This document shows, piece after piece, positions 1 to 43,813 of a stretch of DNA of 43,813 nucleotides. The translations under genes were made by a program, and so were the position numbers. Origin of the DNA: an uncultured Blautia sp. Lineage in GTDB: Bacteria; Bacillota; Clostridia; Lachnospirales; Lachnospiraceae. Position 1 is the stretch's first letter. Every line of letters begins with the position of its first letter. Under the pieces are notes generated by a model. That model searched no databases and had not been told where the DNA came from. It worked only from the letters and a program-made list of their open reading frames with translations. The stretch is from NCBI GenBank assembly GCA_900542045.1, contig UQMI01000028.1, forward strand, positions 1 to 43,813, written 5' to 3'.

Positions 1-61
<61 letters not shown>

Positions 62-31263: not shown

Positions 31264-33214
31264 CCTGCTCCTTCTTTCTTCTTGTTTTTTTCCCCAGACT
31301 ACGCGCGGATTGATAATAAAGATCGCTTCTTTCGTCGATCTGATCCGGGATATAATCCAAATATTGCTTGGTCATATCCTCCTCTTTATGCCCCAGGTAA
31401 TCCCGTACCGCTTGTATGGATACACCTTGCTGATACATTTTAGTTGCCACACCGTGTCGATAGTCATGCGACCGAAAAACAAAATCTTCACACTCCAATC
31501 CATACACCTTGCACAAACGTTGCATTTGTGTGCAGAACGTCTGACTCTTATAGGCCCCTCCCTTCCGATTCTGAAACACATATTCTTCCGGTCCGATCTG
31601 CTTTTTCTTGATATACTCTGTCATCAATTGATATAAAACCGTGGGAATCGGGATCATTTTTTCCGTCTTCATCTTGTGTTGATAAATCCGAATCCATGCA
31701 TCCTGTCCCCTCCAAAAATAGGCATCCCCTTTGATACAGCACACTTCGTTGATCCGCAATCCAACGCTCCACAAATGAAGAAACATCAACCGCAGATGTT
31801 CTGGAAAGTACTTCAAATGGGCCAATAACTTGCCTTGACTTTCCTCAGAAACACATCGATCCCGATGGGTTGGGAGCACTTTTTTCAAATAGTATTCGAG
31901 GCAAAGCGGATTCTTTTTGATATATCCTTTGATCAATAAAAAGCAAAAAAAGCCATGGATATCAGCTAAAATCTTATTAAAAGTATCTGCCAGCAGTTCT
32001 TTTTCTTCCTCTTCTTTTATATAGCGATCGACCTCGTTTACAGATACTTCTGTGAGGGAATATCCCATCCGATCACAATACAGCAAGAAGTCTTTGATAT
32101 GATAATATTCCCCCTGAATCGAATGGATCGCCTTATTGCTAACCCCAATACAATAGCGCATATAGGCCTGAAAAAGCTTCCGATTGTCTACCTGTAAGAT
32201 GTCATAAAAATGGAAGGATTCTGGCGAATTTGCTGGATTTATCCGGCCATTTTTGAAAGAAAAACGCGCTAAATACCATACATTTGCATCCCAATTTGTC
32301 TTCTCCGCATGCAAAAACAGGTATTTTCTTACGTTCCCAACGATCTGCATATAGAGATTTGTTTTTGTGCCAACCTTCCCTTCCATACTCCCGCGGAATG
32401 CCTCGATCTCTGTTTTTTCCAGCTTCTCCAGATCCGAAATTCCATGTTGCACACAAAATAAATACAGTTTTTGCAAAGGAAGAAGAAACCGCTCCCTTCG
32501 ATTTTTCCAATTGTATTCTGTTTCTAACACATGATTTAACATTGCAAAAATCTGCTTCTTTAACCGAACGTCCGCCTGCAGAGAAAAATCAAATAATAAT
32601 TCTTGTTTATTGCGAAGGTAATAAAAACTCCTTGCGATCGCATAATCGGGATGATAGCCCAGGTAGATCGGTGCTTCTTGAAATAGTAACTTACAGGGCC
32701 GAAACGGCTGCCTCTCCTGCTTCTTCTTGATCGCAAATAATTTCAGGCGATCCAGGACCTTCAAATGCGTTTCCATTCGGCTTAACGCTGCTTTCGCAAC
32801 ATAGGATTCATAGGCTTCCCGGACTTGGTAGTCAATCTCTTCCAATCGATGGATCCCCTGCATCATCAGGTAATGGAGGATTTTGTTCGCTTCTACCCGC
32901 GACAACTCCCCATAGGCCTTGACTTCTTCCACAAGATCTGGGAAAAACGGACGCCAATAACAAAAGAGTACGGACTCAAAAGCGGCTGCATAATATTTTT
33001 TTTGGTTGGGCGAAAGAAATTCTTTTTGTGCAACAAAATCCCGGAACTCCTCTTCCGTCTCCAACGTCACCTCCCCCAACGAATCGACCCCGATCTCCCA
33101 GAGAAATTCCGCCACCATCTCCCTTTCTTTTCCCGTTACATACGAACAGCATTCCAGTTCCTTTTGCCACTGCTGGCTGTAAAGATACGACTTCCGACTT
33201 TCCATTTGCCGCAT
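31247..33214 (-). CDS. Tyrosine recombinase 2 (TnpB of Tn554 type)
   Basis: The start is set at ATG 33214, 9 bp after AAAGGAGG; the frame is open to 33265. The 655-residue protein has the catalytic domain at the C-terminus: WSVGLRINEVCCIKGDA (first Arg), SHDYRHGVATKMYQQG (His..Arg), and YLGHKEEDMTKQYLDY (His, Tyr). The large N-terminal region (about 400 residues) is typical of TnpB (630 aa in Tn554). All five catalytic residues appear intact. Confidence 0.9.
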   Translation of the reverse strand: MRQMESRKSYLYSQQWQKELECCSYVTGKEREMVAEFLWEIGVDSLGEVTLETEEEFRDFVAQKEFLSPNQKKYYAAAFESVLFCYWRPFFPDLVEEVKAYGELSRVEANKILHYLMMQGIHRLEEIDYQVREAYESYVAKAALSRMETHLKVLDRLKLFAIKKKQERQPFRPCKLLFQEAPIYLGYHPDYAIARSFYYLRNKQELLFDFSLQADVRLKKQIFAMLNHVLETEYNWKNRRERFLLPLQKLYLFCVQHGISDLEKLEKTEIEAFRGSMEGKVGTKTNLYMQIVGNVRKYLFLHAEKTNWDANVWYLARFSFKNGRINPANSPESFHFYDILQVDNRKLFQAYMRYCIGVSNKAIHSIQGEYYHIKDFLLYCDRMGYSLTEVSVNEVDRYIKEEEEKELLADTFNKILADIHGFFCFLLIKGYIKKNPLCLEYYLKKVLPTHRDRCVSEESQGKLLAHLKYFPEHLRLMFLHLWSVGLRINEVCCIKGDAYFWRGQDAWIRIYQHKMKTEKMIPIPTVLYQLMTEYIKKKQIGPEEYVFQNRKGGAYKSQTFCTQMQRLCKVYGLECEDFVFRSHDYRHGVATKMYQQGVSIQAVRDYLGHKEEDMTKQYLDYIPDQIDERSDLYYQSARSLGKKTRRKKEQDGSKN

Positions 33215-38150: not shown

Positions 38151-38651
38151 ATGACAAATTGGAATCCCTGGCATGGCTGCACCAAAATAAGCCCCGGCTG
38201 TTATCATTGTTATGTCTATCGGAGAGATGCCGAATTTGGCAAGGATGCTTCTCTTGTAACAAAGACGAAAGCATTTGATCTGCCCATCAAAAAAAAACCG
38301 CAAAGGTCAGTACAAACTCCAATCCGATGGAGATTTTATCTATACCTGCTTTACTTCTGACTTTTTTCACCCCGCTGCAGATTCCTGGCGCAAAGAAGCA
38401 TGGGAGATAATGCGGGTCCGTTCTGACCTGCGATTTTTCTTGGTCACCAAACGCCCGGATCGTTTTTTTATCAGTCTGCCTGGGTTTTGGAAACGATGAC
38501 ACAATGCGTAGAATACAATGTCAGCTTTCATTTTAAGCAGACCGGCGCCCTGTTTAAACACGGCCAGAAAGTCTATCGGATCGACCGGAAAGATCAGATC
38601 CCACAGGCAGACAAAGCCGCCATTGATTATCACGCGTCTCCCTTCCTTTAA
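38151..38651 (+). pseudogene. DUF5131 (phage Gp37/Gp68 family), frameshift and internal deletion
   Basis: The N-terminus is good (NWNPWHGCTKISPGCYHCY with the radical-SAM-like Cys cluster, after GGAGG). A run of nine A (38289-38297) shifts the frame; with eight A the sequence would continue as IKKNRKGQYKLQSDG. The second frame then runs through TCFTSDFF and RSDLRFFLVTKRPDRF to a stop at about 38500. The third frame resumes near the family's C-terminus (CVEYNVSFHFKQTG to the stop at 38651). About 85 residues of the middle are lost. Not functional. Confidence 0.85.
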
Positions 38652-38832: not shown

Positions 38833-39435
38833 TTACTCATATTCAGGAGCAAACTGAATGGTAGTTGCTTCTCCATATACTCTCGAATCAGCAACTTTTT
38901 TAAATGGTGTAATGGAAATGTACTGTTCCCACGCTTCTGCACTTTTTATCTGATAGCGGGTACAGCTCTTAGATAATATAATCTCCTCTTCCATAATCTC
39001 ATTCGCCCCTTTAATTCTGGTAATCCTTAACAAATATCCCGTTGCATCCGGTACTTTATTCCAAGTAAGCAAATGATCATTCGCCAAGTAACTCAATTCC
39101 GTCTTTTGGCTAGAAAAAGCATCTCCCTGAACTGTAATTTTACAACTGTATTTCTTTTTTCCCACGTTTGCAGTTATGACTGCTTTTCCTTCTTTTTTCG
39201 CAATTACTAAAACACTTCTTTGATTGATAGGCAGCATGGTCACTACACTCTTCCGATCCACTTTCCACTTCACTTTTTCTTTTGTATTTAAAAGCGTTAT
39301 ATTTGTGGATGTTCCATTTTCCATAACCACACTTTCCTTATTCAATCTTACCGATGACTTTTCAGATGCGTAAACTGGAATACTAAGTATAACGCACAGC
39401 AGGATTACCACAATTTTAGAAATCTTTTTTTTCAT
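38833..39435 (-). CDS. Secreted Ig-like (BIG2-type) protein
   Basis: A 200-residue protein with a clear signal peptide (KKKISKIVVILLCVILSIPVYA). A BIG2-like domain follows (about 25-105, with LLNTKEKVKWKVDRKSVVTM and GKAVITANVGKKKYSCKITV in parts), then a fibronectin-III-like domain (about 110-200, LTWNKVPDATGYLLRIT). It has no sortase signal, so it is released or loosely wall-bound. AAAGAGG-type ribosome site upstream (GGAGC). Its AT-rich codons match the agr locus next to it; regulation by agr is only a guess. Confidence 0.75.
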   Translation of the reverse strand: MKKKISKIVVILLCVILSIPVYASEKSSVRLNKESVVMENGTSTNITLLNTKEKVKWKVDRKSVVTMLPINQRSVLVIAKKEGKAVITANVGKKKYSCKITVQGDAFSSQKTELSYLANDHLLTWNKVPDATGYLLRITRIKGANEIMEEEIILSKSCTRYQIKSAEAWEQYISITPFKKVADSRVYGEATTIQFAPEYE

Positions 39436-39617
39436 AATAAAGCTCCTCTATTGAATCTAATGCTATCTAAATACAGTTCCCTTAAATACTAATCTGCAAT
39501 GGCTTCACCCCCTGTTCCCATCGAAAACACTATTTAAATATTATCCATAATATAACCTTCAGTCCTCGTCCCCTCTGCAAAATATTCAGACATACCCTCA
39601 ATATAACGACATAGAAT

Positions 39618-39824
39618 TTAACCAAGTTTCTGCTCGGTACAACGGTTGTCCGACGAATCAACGATACTGAAAGACTTTGTATGCATAGGATCATCGCTTA
39701 CATAGCCAAGAGAAATGCCAAGATTGCCTGCTGGCATTTCTTCGTACGAACCAATGTCCTTGTTAGAATATACAATCGATTCATATTCCAGTTCTGTCGT
39801 TTCCGCATATGCTACAGTATTCAA
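39618..39824 (-). pseudogene. Remnant of a small secreted protein
   Basis: About 68 codons without ATG or ribosome site. The segment NTVAYAETTELEYESIV looks like the end of a signal peptide plus mature start. An ATG preceded by GGAG lies at 39835 in another frame, just upstream, as if most of the signal peptide were deleted with a frameshift. The remaining IGSYEEMPAGNLGISLGY part is of unknown family. The rest of 39436-39971 shows no gene. Confidence 0.4.
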
Positions 39825-39971
39825 TGGTTTTCATTTACTCCATATATCTCTGAAAATTCTTTAACGAATCTGGTAAACTCGCAATATACTTTACAAAAAT
39901 GTTTAACTGAATTATAATATTTATCGTTATATCTTTGTCTATTTATGACATTTCCGTATCGTATATACCAT

Positions 39972-40733
39972 TTATATCTTTTCATATTTCTCCAACATAA
40001 AAAATAACATTCTCTTATATCGATAAGAATAGTCTACCCGCATTTTATTTTTCATGATCAATTGCCGATTTACTTGATCGACTTGTTCTACATATGTAAC
40101 ATTAATTACGGTTGCCTGGCTAATCTGACAAAACAAATTACAATCGAGTTGTTTCATGAATTCCTTGATTGTTCCACGTTTACTGATTATTTCGTTCTCC
40201 AGAATAATTTTCACTTTATGGCTATTCAATTCTGTTTCCAAAAGGATAATTTCATTATACGGAATAAGATACCTTTTTCGGCTGATCTGCAGTGCAAGAT
40301 GTCCTATCTGATTATGAATATTACTAGCCTGATAATAATTCTTCAGGGCCCGTTCCAGGCATTGCGTTATTCTTGCTCTCAGTACTTCTCTGTCTCCCTT
40401 AATCACATAATCCATGGCTTCCAAATGCTTATCATACGGAAAATATGACAACTCCCTATGGACCGTAACGAACACCAGATAACTCCTTGGATCGACTTCC
40501 CGGATTTTTTCTGCCAGATCAAACCCATCCATATCACCGCGTAATTCCACATCCAAATAATATAATCCCATAGCAGGTGTATTCTTCTTCAACTCTTGAA
40601 AAAGTCGTTCTGGACTGTCTGTTTGAAAAGTAATTTTTGCTGGAATTTCGTTAATAATAATATATTTTTCTAAAATATCTTTCCAGATATTTAACTGTTT
40701 CTGATCATCTTCACATAAATAAATAGATAACAC
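39972..40733 (-). CDS. agrA: LytTR response regulator, AgrA-like
   Basis: A 253-residue protein from GTG 40733 (GAGG 9 bp upstream, 2 bp after the kinase stop). Receiver domain 1-125 with acidic pair CEDD (8-10), phospho-Asp at about residue 61 (YYLDVELRGDMDG) and Lys in MDYVIKGD. LytTR DNA-binding domain about 150-250 (LILLETELNSHKVKIIL-type strands). It would switch on target promoters when phosphorylated by the adjacent kinase. Confidence 0.9.
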   Translation of the reverse strand: MLSIYLCEDDQKQLNIWKDILEKYIIINEIPAKITFQTDSPERLFQELKKNTPAMGLYYLDVELRGDMDGFDLAEKIREVDPRSYLVFVTVHRELSYFPYDKHLEAMDYVIKGDREVLRARITQCLERALKNYYQASNIHNQIGHLALQISRKRYLIPYNEIILLETELNSHKVKIILENEIISKRGTIKEFMKQLDCNLFCQISQATVINVTYVEQVDQVNRQLIMKNKMRVDYSYRYKRMLFFMLEKYEKI

Positions 40734-40735
40734 CT

Positions 40736-42043
40736 TTATACACCTCTTTCGTATATAATTAACCTCTGCTCAAACACATCGTTTTCAGATGACATCAACC
40801 ATTCTACATTTTCATACTTTTCTAATATTCTGTTTACTTCATACAGCCCCAGCCCAGAGTGGCCCGCTTTCGAAGTGATTCCCTTTCTACATAACTCAGT
40901 TATCTCCAATCCATTTTCTATCGTATCGTTTTGTATAACAATAGAAACTCTTTCATCACTATATTCAAAATTCACATTTACTTTTTTACTCTCTGTAATT
41001 TCTGCAGCTTCCACTGCATTATCTAAAAAAATTCCTATTACACGGCAAAGATCCAGCAAATCCATTTCTATTTTACGAATCTTCGAAGGTATATCTAATG
41101 TTAAATCCACCCCTCTATATAGCATTTGTAAACATTTTCCGAAAAATAAACCTTTTAATTCCGGTATTTCTAAATTACTCAGTTTCTTTACTTGGGGCAA
41201 TGAAAAATCTTGTTTTTTATAAAATGGCTCTATCTTTGTTTCAAAATATAATTTCAGTTTCTCCCATTCTTCATCCTCTATATATTCCTTCATTGTTAAC
41301 ATAATATTTACATAGTCATGCCGAAAAATCCTAGTTTCATCATAAAGTGCTTCCAATTTTTCCGTATATTCTTTCAAATATGTTTGTTCCGCTATCTGCA
41401 CTTTAAGTTTTTGATCCTTTAACAACACTTTGTATACAAAGCGAAAAATCAGGCAATTACATACAAAATAAATAGTAAAAAAAAGCCCATTAATCTGAAG
41501 CATATTATCTGGGTAACCAACATAACCGCCATAAATAATGTTAATTACCAACATAAAAATATATACTAGCATCTGAAAAAAAATGCCTGTCACAATACTT
41601 TTATTAAAGAGCTGCATTTTTTTGTTTAAATGCCATTTTTCAATAAATAAGTAGCGAATACCTGCGCACAAAGTAAATGTGATGGCTACATACAATAATG
41701 AATACCCTGTAAAATAAATATGATGTATATCATCGAATGATATGTTCCAGATCAAATTCAGAAGATTTGTGCTAATATAATCAACAACGATCACTATACT
41801 GTATAAAGCCATAAATAATAGAACATTGCCTTTCTTTTCCTTGCTCTTATATAATAAATAAAATAAACTTCCGCCTACTTTAAATACGGTCGATATTTGC
41901 CCATGATTCAAGCTTATAGTACTATCTATTAAAATCATATAAATTGCTAAAATCAAAATTGCTTTCTTAGAAAGAAAATCTATTCTGGCCAGAACAGTAC
42001 AATAAACAAAAATCAACGAAGAAAAAAGAACATACCATATCAT
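40736..42043 (-). CDS. agrC: GHKL sensor histidine kinase, AgrC-like
   Basis: The start is taken as ATG 42043 (MIWYVLF, with GGGGAG upstream). The 435-residue protein has about six membrane helices in residues 1-205, then the phospho-acceptor His in TRIFRHDYVNIM (about 242) and an HPK10-type ATPase with N-box FLDNAVEAAE (about 339-348) and GHSGLGLYEV. This is the AgrC design, sensing a cyclic peptide at the cell surface. It is divergent from agrB. Confidence 0.9.
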   Translation of the reverse strand: MIWYVLFSSLIFVYCTVLARIDFLSKKAILILAIYMILIDSTISLNHGQISTVFKVGGSLFYLLYKSKEKKGNVLLFMALYSIVIVVDYISTNLLNLIWNISFDDIHHIYFTGYSLLYVAITFTLCAGIRYLFIEKWHLNKKMQLFNKSIVTGIFFQMLVYIFMLVINIIYGGYVGYPDNMLQINGLFFTIYFVCNCLIFRFVYKVLLKDQKLKVQIAEQTYLKEYTEKLEALYDETRIFRHDYVNIMLTMKEYIEDEEWEKLKLYFETKIEPFYKKQDFSLPQVKKLSNLEIPELKGLFFGKCLQMLYRGVDLTLDIPSKIRKIEMDLLDLCRVIGIFLDNAVEAAEITESKKVNVNFEYSDERVSIVIQNDTIENGLEITELCRKGITSKAGHSGLGLYEVNRILEKYENVEWLMSSENDVFEQRLIIYERGV

Positions 42044-42111
42044 TTTTGAAATTCTCCCCTTTTGAATAGCTCTATTTTTATTATTACAAAGTGTATGCAT
42101 TCGCATCACAA

Positions 42112-42169
42112 ATACGACATATCCGTTACTAATATGACACTTTTTATGAAAAATCCGCAAAATACGTCA
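42112..42169. promoter_or_regulatory. Phased repeats in the agr divergent spacer
   Basis: Three copies of AATA(C/T)G(A/T)CA at 42111-42119, 42131-42139 and 42161-42169, spaced exactly 20 and 30 bp, all in the same orientation. Placement between agrC and agrB and spacing near two helical turns fit an AgrA (LytTR) binding site, although the motif differs from the S. aureus box. Confidence 0.5.
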
Positions 42170-42180
42170 AAATAAAATAC

Positions 42181-42762
42181 ATGAAAATAAGTAAGCGATT
42201 AAGTATATGGTGCTCTCGGGAATTACAGCTTGAAAATGTTATACAGCAAACCGTTGAATACGGATTTTCGCTAATGTTTGATACACTCCTAAAATACGCT
42301 ATAATCTTTTTTTCAGGCATTATATGTAAAAAAGTTTCTAATACAGTCCTTGTATTGATCATTTTTGCATTATTACGCAGTTCAGCAGGAGGATACCACG
42401 CAAAGACAAGTTTGGGATGTGGTCTTTATATGTTTTTCATATGGGCAATCAGCATCTTTCTGCCAAATATCTATTCTCATAAACCTATGATTATTTTGGC
42501 AATCTATTTTTTTTGTATAGTCACAATTTGCTGTTTTGCTCCTAATGGTGGCCCAAATAATCTACCTTCTAATAAAGTACAAATTATTTATTTTAAAAAA
42601 TTATTTGCCATAGCAACCGTTACTATTTGCTCTTTGATTGCATATAAGATTCCTTATTTTCAATCAAATATTTTAACAGTAATGATATCTACCATGTTTT
42701 TAATTATCAAAGAAGCATTAGGGAAAGGAGTTCATTATGAAACTGAAACAACAAACAGCTAA
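42181..42762 (+). CDS. agrB: AgrB-like autoinducer-processing membrane endopeptidase
   Basis: A 193-residue membrane protein with the AgrB signature RSSAGGYHAKTSLGC: catalytic His73 and Cys80, the same seven-residue spacing as in S. aureus (77/84). Several membrane helices follow and FAPNGGPNNLPS is the usual conserved loop. It cleaves AgrD and forms the thiolactone/lactone ring. No Shine-Dalgarno sequence precedes ATG 42181, so initiation may be weak or leaderless. It overlaps agrD by 26 bp. Confidence 0.93.
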   Translation: MKISKRLSIWCSRELQLENVIQQTVEYGFSLMFDTLLKYAIIFFSGIICKKVSNTVLVLIIFALLRSSAGGYHAKTSLGCGLYMFFIWAISIFLPNIYSHKPMIILAIYFFCIVTICCFAPNGGPNNLPSNKVQIIYFKKLFAIATVTICSLIAYKIPYFQSNILTVMISTMFLIIKEALGKGVHYETETTNS

Positions 42763-42883
42763 ATTATTAACCGTTCTTGCTTTAAAAACAGCCCAAACAG
42801 CTGTAAATAAAAGTGTTTTTGCAGGTGTCTATTATTCCAAGCCATCATCAAGTGTTGCAAAGTGGCTTCAAAAGAATAGTTAA
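42737..42883 (+). CDS. agrD: AgrD-like autoinducer precursor peptide without cysteine
   Basis: A 48-residue peptide with AAAGGAG 6 bp before its ATG, starting inside the end of agrB. It has the AgrD plan: amphipathic N-terminal leader (MKLKQQTAKLLTVLALK), a middle segment AVNKSVFAGVYYSKPSSSVAK and a basic tail KWLQKNS. Clostridial AgrDs usually carry (S/C)...(Y/F)QPK.PE-type ends, which aligns with VYYSKPSSS. There is no cysteine at all; the ring would have to use Ser (e.g. Ser26 or one of Ser34/37/38/39), giving a lactone, as in the Ser-type AIP of S. intermedius. It may alternatively be dead. Confidence 0.85.
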   Translation: MKLKQQTAKLLTVLALKTAQTAVNKSVFAGVYYSKPSSSVAKWLQKNS

Positions 42884-43005
42884 GTAAGTGTAGTAACCTC
42901 TTCTCATACTTACCATAATCCAAATAGTTTTGAACCACTATAAAAAATTATTAACTAATCGAGAAAGTTCTGTCCTAAAAACGTAAATTAGAGATATCCC
43001 CAGAC
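42884..43005. other. Spacer downstream of agrD
   Basis: About 120 bp with no gene and no clear terminator. The intron remnant begins at its right edge. Confidence 0.5.
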
Positions 43006-43642
43006 AAGTAATAAGGGAGAGGGAGAATAATTTTCTCGCCCTTTCCATTGAACCGTACGTACGGGTCTCATATACGGCTCTACAACTTATATTCCAACTT
43101 CTACTAAGTAATAGGATAAGAGATTGAGCAGACCTGCTCCATCTTTTATCCTATTTTCAAGTAATTCTTTACTGATAATGAAATTCACTACGTTCGTTCC
43201 ACTTCTTCTGTACCAGCCAAGTCTTGAATTTGCAACTTTATGAATATCTTCCTGCTTAAATCCATTTCGATTCTTCCTGTTTAGATAACTTAGGTTTCTG
43301 TAGATGGCTTTTGGCTTCTTCCATTGCTTCATAACTATCATCCTTATTTTATGTCTTAGCCATTCTCCAAACTCTTCCATAAACTGCTTCATTAGTCCGA
43401 TTCTGAAGTAATTAATCCATCCTCTCACAATCTCATTTACTCGTTTGATTGTCACTGTCAGAGGTCTGGCTGTTGCTTTCCCTCTTTTCAGATATTCAGC
43501 CAATTTCTTCTTAAGTTTCTTTTCTGTGGTAGGCTTTACCTTCCACTCACCACCGTTTTTCAAAAACGTGAATCCCAGGTATTTGCTTCGTGTCGGTCTG
43601 ACTACTTTCGTTTTTGTTGCATTTACTTTTATCACTTCACCG
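43006..43642 (-). mobile_element. Group II intron, 3' fragment
   Basis: On the minus strand, after the maturase stop, GAGCCGTATATGAG...ACGTACGGTTC (about 43050-43080) is domain V. It is followed by domain VI with the GGGCGAGAAAA/TTCTCCCTCTCCC stem and the 3' end at about 43006. Domains I-IV and most of the reverse transcriptase are missing, so it cannot splice or move. Confidence 0.82.
43087..43635 (-). pseudogene. ltrA: Group II intron reverse transcriptase/maturase, C-terminal fragment
   Basis: 183 residues match the end of the RT domain and the maturase (X) domain: KTKVVRPTRSKYLGFTF, GWINYFRIGLMKQFMEEFG, and the KVANSRLGWYR segment near the end. The catalytic YADD and the whole N-terminal half are absent; a stop lies in frame directly upstream. 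The fragment would not be active. Confidence 0.88.
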
Positions 43643-43813
43643 TTTCATGTACAATACATGCAAAAACGCAATTCATTCCTCCGCCTTAGATTCTGGATAC
43701 TTCTTTGAGTATTCCGGGTGATTTTGGTTCTTCCGCATATTTTGGTATAAAGTATAGCTTTTGAGCCTCATACCTGATAAAATTAATATAATTAAAATGA
43801 AAGAAGGAATCTT
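43643..43813. other. Right edge, no assignable gene
   Basis: A 32-codon frame on the minus strand (43673-43771, starting MRLKSYTLYQ) is rich in Lys/Asn/Glu and may be a fragment of an unknown gene; it has no clear ribosome site. CATGTA-TTG-TACATG at about 43646-43660 is a small palindrome at the intron truncation point. Confidence 0.3.

Follow-up and report, generated by a model that had tools for sequence, protein, structure and literature searches.

Serine takes the place of cysteine in several described agr-type signals. Ser rings are listed for S. pseudintermedius, for the GBAP of E. faecalis and for agr2 of C. difficile (PMC12312760, Table 1), and the S. pseudintermedius lactone has been described separately (PMC3673130). 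Replacement of the central Cys by Ser in some cases is stated in PMC4916163, and an acyl-enzyme mechanism on the Cys of AgrB is given in PMC4979651. The P-x-x-P motif is characteristic of AgrD and is the site where AgrB binds, according to the account in PMC3901668. A literature search, conducted mostly on titles and abstract openings, yielded no recognised census of Ser-type AgrDs.

The locus described here lies near one end of the window, i.e. the whole stretch of 43,813 nucleotides that was analysed, and comprises agrB, agrC, agrA and a small agrD-like open reading frame (Table 1). The locus is real, its AgrD is probably of the Ser type and its Cys-free state is largely ordinary.

Genes of the locus and their setting

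Table 1 Features of the agr locus and of the surrounding window
Feature	Position	Strand	Details
agrB	42181..42762	+	193 aa, PF04647, catalytic His73 and Cys80 kept
agrD-like gene	42737..42883	+	48 aa, Cys-free; ring assigned, by inference, from the Ser-to-Pro spacing in the AgrD survey
agrD-like peptide, parts			leader approximately 1-25; ring probably S26-G30, with Ser26 as predicted ring residue; tail 31-48 with Pro36 as its only Pro
Shine-Dalgarno of agrD-like gene	42724..42730	+	AAAGGAG, inside the 3' end of agrB
agrC	40736..42043	-	GHKL sensor kinase, 435 aa, divergent from agrB; ATG at 42043, GGGGAG upstream
agrA	39972..40733	-	receiver and LytTR domains, 253 aa
agrC/agrB intergenic region	42044..42180		divergent, 137 nt; direct repeat AATACGACA / AATATGACA, 20-nt period
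run of short ORFs	39530-39971	-	downstream of agrA
ORF with signal-like N-terminus	38833-39435	-	200 aa, downstream of agrA
69-codon ORF	38151-38360		Shine-Dalgarno present; start MTNWNPWHGCTKISPGCYHCY
16S rRNA gene, 5' end	1-61	-	start of window
group II intron maturase, C-terminal part	43087-43635		near window end

The predicted AgrB scored 93.6 bits against PF04647 (cut-off 23). The original prediction, made from this sequence alone, held that its His73 and Cys80 are kept, and this was borne out, the two columns being H and C in all 136 aligned AgrBs, that of the window included. At four other positions the protein has minority states, namely G at 123 (14/136), N at 127 (8), L at 128 (3) and I at 135 (6), the usual residues being D/E, K, P and R/K, respectively; these positions lie in a gapped region of the alignment.

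The frames of agrC and agrA are open, and PF14501, PF00072 and PF04397 were over their cut-offs in the pair, which thus contains both a kinase and a LytTR regulator. The AgrC and AgrA models NF046015 and NF046049 were also matched (E values 1.2e-47 and 2.8e-39), and the kinase and regulator look intact, as had been proposed, though both matches are below the strict equivalog cut-offs. The direct repeat between agrC and agrB is a possible candidate AgrA site; as a demonstrated site it was rejected, 8 % of shuffled sequences doing as well.

The agrD-like ORF starts with ATG at 42737 and stops with TAA at 42881-42883. It overlaps the end of agrB by 26 nt, and the gap between AAAGGAG and its start codon is 6 nt. 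An overlap of the same length (-26 nt) was also observed in G360, a genome of the survey, for three AgrDs. A script scan of the whole 43.8-kb window gave only four ORFs that start with ATG, encode 40-75 aa and have a 5-nt Shine-Dalgarno core, which makes a chance frame unlikely here; two of the four are other-frame ORFs within larger same-strand ORFs. A small ORF with a ribosome site and overlapping agrB, as is expected of an AgrD gene, is therefore present, and the description of it as a Cys-free gene of 48 codons was confirmed.

The GC content of the agr genes is 31 %, compared with 47.5 % for positions 1-38800, and it is 29-35 % in the 1-kb windows of 39001-43000 versus 39.5-53 % in the others, suggesting that the agr region is an acquired island. 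The window begins within a 16S rRNA gene and has part of a maturase near its end, which would fit a metagenomic contig whose assembly stopped at repeats. Positions 42884-43813, at the window end, had no plasmid match. Downstream of agrA and on the same strand are a protein of 200 aa, whose N-terminus is signal-like and whose Ig-like matches are all below threshold, and a run of short ORFs which may be a broken secreted gene; both are possible candidate targets of the agr system. The 69-codon ORF further away is apparently cut short, and its start may resemble that of a phage protein family.

The agrD-like peptide and a survey of agrB-linked AgrDs

The agrD-like peptide was without a match in NCBIfam, including TIGR04223, at E values up to 10, and in Pfam at E values up to 1, although the TIGR04223 cut-off was passed by 10 of 10 control AgrDs (six Ser, one Thr and three Cys). 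A home-made profile of 131 surveyed AgrDs, all but two of which score more than 30 bits against it, gave 6.4 bits with the peptide, the leader alone matching, and 4 of 1000 shuffled sequences scored as high. Profile positions 1-24 align to residues 2-25 of the peptide, and Ser26 is within one position of the ring residue of the profile, 26. When 246 ORFs of the window (34-75 aa, the candidate included) were scanned with the profile, one scored higher, 7.6 bits; this unrelated frame, short and rich in Ser, lies near position 31917 and not beside agrB. The helical moment of the leader of the agrD-like peptide is only modest.

The tail (VYYSKPSSSVAKWLQKNS) lacks P-x-x-P, Pro36 being its single Pro, and the window is accordingly among the 21 of 150 AgrBs for which no AgrD was found by the P-x-x-P rule. 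A ring of S26-G30 would leave a tail of 18 residues, a length found in one of the 129 surveyed AgrDs when counted from the same point, the tail being 11 residues in 79 of them. The proposed AgrD layout of the peptide thus holds in part: the leader weakly resembles that of AgrD, but the tail departs from it and the NCBIfam and Pfam models miss the peptide. The tail is also free of acidic residues; an acid-free or basic tail was rejected as a special feature, since 22/129 AgrDs are without an acidic residue and 22/129 have a net charge of +3 or more.

The genomes surveyed belong to the phylum of Vagococcus, hence Bacillota, and PF04647 was present in 164 of 398. The sample was non-random: resemblance to the AgrB of the window was the reason for including 30 loci, the Vagococcus locus L002 came from a separate search, a further 30 loci came from the PF04647 scan, and 100 were chosen among the matches which that scan listed. 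The resulting 162 sequences (161 loci and the window stretch) contained 150 different AgrBs, that of the window included. An adjacent ORF was called AgrD by the P-x-x-P rule, which succeeded for 129 AgrBs, and the ring position was placed upstream of the second Pro, at a distance of 10 residues or, rarely, of 11 or 12. The script labelled the ring residue as Cys in 78, Ser in 44, Thr in 4 and other in 3 AgrDs, and by these raw labels the second Pro is preceded by Cys or Ser at a distance of exactly 10 residues in 117/129. Four labels were corrected by hand, those of L010 (to Cys), of L058 and L088, for which the script had taken the wrong ORF, and of L002 (Cys at -12), giving 81 Cys, 43 Ser, 4 Thr and 1 unclear. 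Cys is missing from the entire peptide in 36 of the 129.

Thr is found at the usual ring position in L089 and L139 and one residue before it in L008 and L135, which suggests, from the peptide sequences, that these four would form threonine lactones. The ring position of L027 is occupied by a residue other than Cys, Ser or Thr.

The AgrB tree had 136 rows, consisting of the 129 AgrBs, that of the window and six with hand-labelled AgrDs (L156, L128, L112, L011, L016 and L023; the AgrDs of L112, L128 and L156 were accepted by eye), with the other 14 AgrBs, for which no AgrD had been found, excluded. On this tree a minimum of 26 changes of the ring residue is required in total; for Ser, the well-supported branches require a minimum of 13 gains or losses. 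Around the best genome match of the window, the three AgrBs L008, L010 and L013 are accompanied by Thr, Cys and Ser, respectively. On the tree, the AgrB of the window lies beside L002; this was not taken as meaningful, as the tree warns of long branches meeting.

Relatives of the locus

Protein and genome searches revealed no close relative of the locus. When MurG was used to place the source organism, the best genome match had 63 % identity. A search of 5.8 billion proteins with AgrB and AgrD returned, at its sensitivity, only the locus itself; the AgrD cluster has two member sequences on 20 contigs and the AgrB cluster three on 9, indicating that the locus recurs. The best matches elsewhere have at most 32 % identity for AgrB and at most about 32 % for AgrC, and a class-level search of 15 genomes around the best AgrB match gave the same two matches and nothing further. 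Among plasmids, 15 records had an AgrB match in a protein search with a laxer limit, and AgrC matched proteins in 77 plasmid and 14 phage records, all with less than 60 % identity. No match was found to the agr stretch among plasmids by DNA, to AgrB among phages by protein or among solved structures, or to AgrC, AgrB or AgrB alignment A2 among viral contigs.

Five named plasmid relatives were read, and the AgrD is Cys-free in two and contains Cys in three. The Cys-free AgrDs, of Lachnospira eligens and Paenibacillus rhizovicinus, are annotated as 'AgrD family cyclic lactone autoinducer peptide'. Cys is present in AgrD-like ORFs of Enterococcus raffinosus and Latilactobacillus curvatus, which the records leave unannotated, as well as in the AgrD-like sequence of a Paraclostridium sordellii plasmid (L170). 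On the latter plasmid, one annotated ORF (1911-2636) consists of the AgrB match with an in-frame AgrD-like end, possibly an AgrB-AgrD fusion as judged from the sequence, and adjoins a LanM-type gene.

Interpretation and comparison with known systems

We consider the locus a complete agr-type module, probably on an acquired AT-rich island, whose AgrD would be converted to a lactone through Ser26, most likely with a five-residue ring (probability about 0.72). The sequence itself provides all four genes, an AgrB with its catalytic residues, and an AgrD that is free of Cys and has Ser26 at its given place. From these we infer the size of the ring, how the peptide is processed, exported and sensed, and that the system is active at present. 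AgrB would cleave the C-terminal tail from the 48-aa AgrD and bind the newly formed C-terminus to Cys80 as a thioester, which Ser26 would then attack to close the lactone ring, most likely S26-V-F-A-G30. The leader would then be trimmed to a short N-terminal tail on the lactone and the peptide exported; AgrC would sense it and phosphorylate AgrA.

The original prediction had treated a Cys-free AgrD as exceptional and had offered either a Ser lactone or a decaying peptide. The first point did not hold, with Ser at the ring position of a third of the surveyed AgrDs (43/129) and repeated switches on the AgrB tree, and the absence of Cys was rejected as a sign of decay or rarity on the basis of the survey of 129 AgrDs, the switches on the tree, the TIGR04223 controls and the plasmid relatives. 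Between the two readings offered, the Ser lactone is the better, because Ser26 stands 10 residues before Pro36, the only Pro, and Ser is a common natural alternative; taking Pro36 as the Pro from which to count is an assumption. The low profile score, the TIGR04223 miss, the lack of P-x-x-P, the minority states of AgrB and the presence of Cys in three of the five plasmid relatives weigh against this explanation.

Some of the same observations would be expected of a listener strain, in which AgrD, and perhaps AgrB, is decaying and gives no active signal and AgrC and AgrA still respond to the signals of other strains. The missing P-x-x-P, the weak match to the AgrD profile and the minority states of AgrB at several usually conserved positions agree with such decay, but the frames are open, the Shine-Dalgarno sequence is strong, His73 and Cys80 are kept, Cys-free AgrDs are common and the peptide cluster recurs on many contigs. 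A listener strain is thus possible but unlikely, and positive support for it was not found. The divergent tail and the AgrB states could be signs of co-divergence of enzyme and substrate, or of early decay. It is conceivable, though doubtful, that AgrB and AgrD have co-diverged into an agr subtype in which P-x-x-P has been dropped and the AgrB loop, usually A-P-x-D/E...K-P, has changed, giving another recognition code with cyclisation through Ser26 kept.

The peptide might also be cyclised differently, through another Ser such as Ser34, in a ring of another size, or as a larger GBAP-like lactone that begins at Ser26 and ends near residue 34 or 35. It has several Ser residues (26, 34 and 37-39), larger Ser rings such as the nine-residue ring of GBAP exist (PMC12312760, in its account of GBAP), and S26-G30 leaves an unusually long tail; we nevertheless find such a ring rather improbable, the 10-residue spacing to Pro36 fitting Ser26 and a five-residue ring. 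That the ORF is no AgrD at all, but an unrelated small protein or a chance frame with the true precursor elsewhere, would explain the lack of a family match and the weak profile score. This seems very unlikely given its position, its overlap with agrB, its Shine-Dalgarno sequence and its putative leader, and the single ORF of the window with a higher profile score is not beside agrB.

The Ser-lactone reading is thus preferred, and the view that AgrD needs Cys is corrected by the survey, in which Ser or Thr stands at the ring position in 47/129 AgrDs (corrected labels). The frequent switching of this residue makes Ser-lactone signals a broad and testable class. The present locus is one very divergent member of it, and the divergence of its AgrD tail is mildly interesting.

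Compared with the Ser type of TIGR04223, the locus has the same short ORF at agrB, a putative leader, a Ser 10 residues before a Pro and AgrC and AgrA partners, but its peptide is without P-x-x-P, has a long tail and is missed by the model. The megaplasmid of Lachnospira eligens ATCC 27750 (WP_012740347.1, WP_012740348.1) carries the best-ranked named AgrB, with 29.5 % identity over 76 % of the query, and likewise has a Cys-free AgrD and agrC and agrA on the opposite strand. Its agrD, however, precedes agrB, its AgrD tail has P-x-x-P, and its agrB is convergent to agrC, whereas agrB of the window is divergent. C. difficile agr2 (agrB2D2C2A2) is likewise clostridial and includes a two-component pair of its own; Table 1 of PMC12312760 lists it with a Ser ring, NSA[SSWVA], of other sequence. 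The AIP of S. pseudintermedius and the GBAP of the E. faecalis Fsr system are, as presented in PMC12312760 and PMC3673130, also Ser lactones from agr-like systems; they differ in sequence, GBAP also in its nine-residue ring, and, unlike the predicted signal of the window, have been characterised as molecules.
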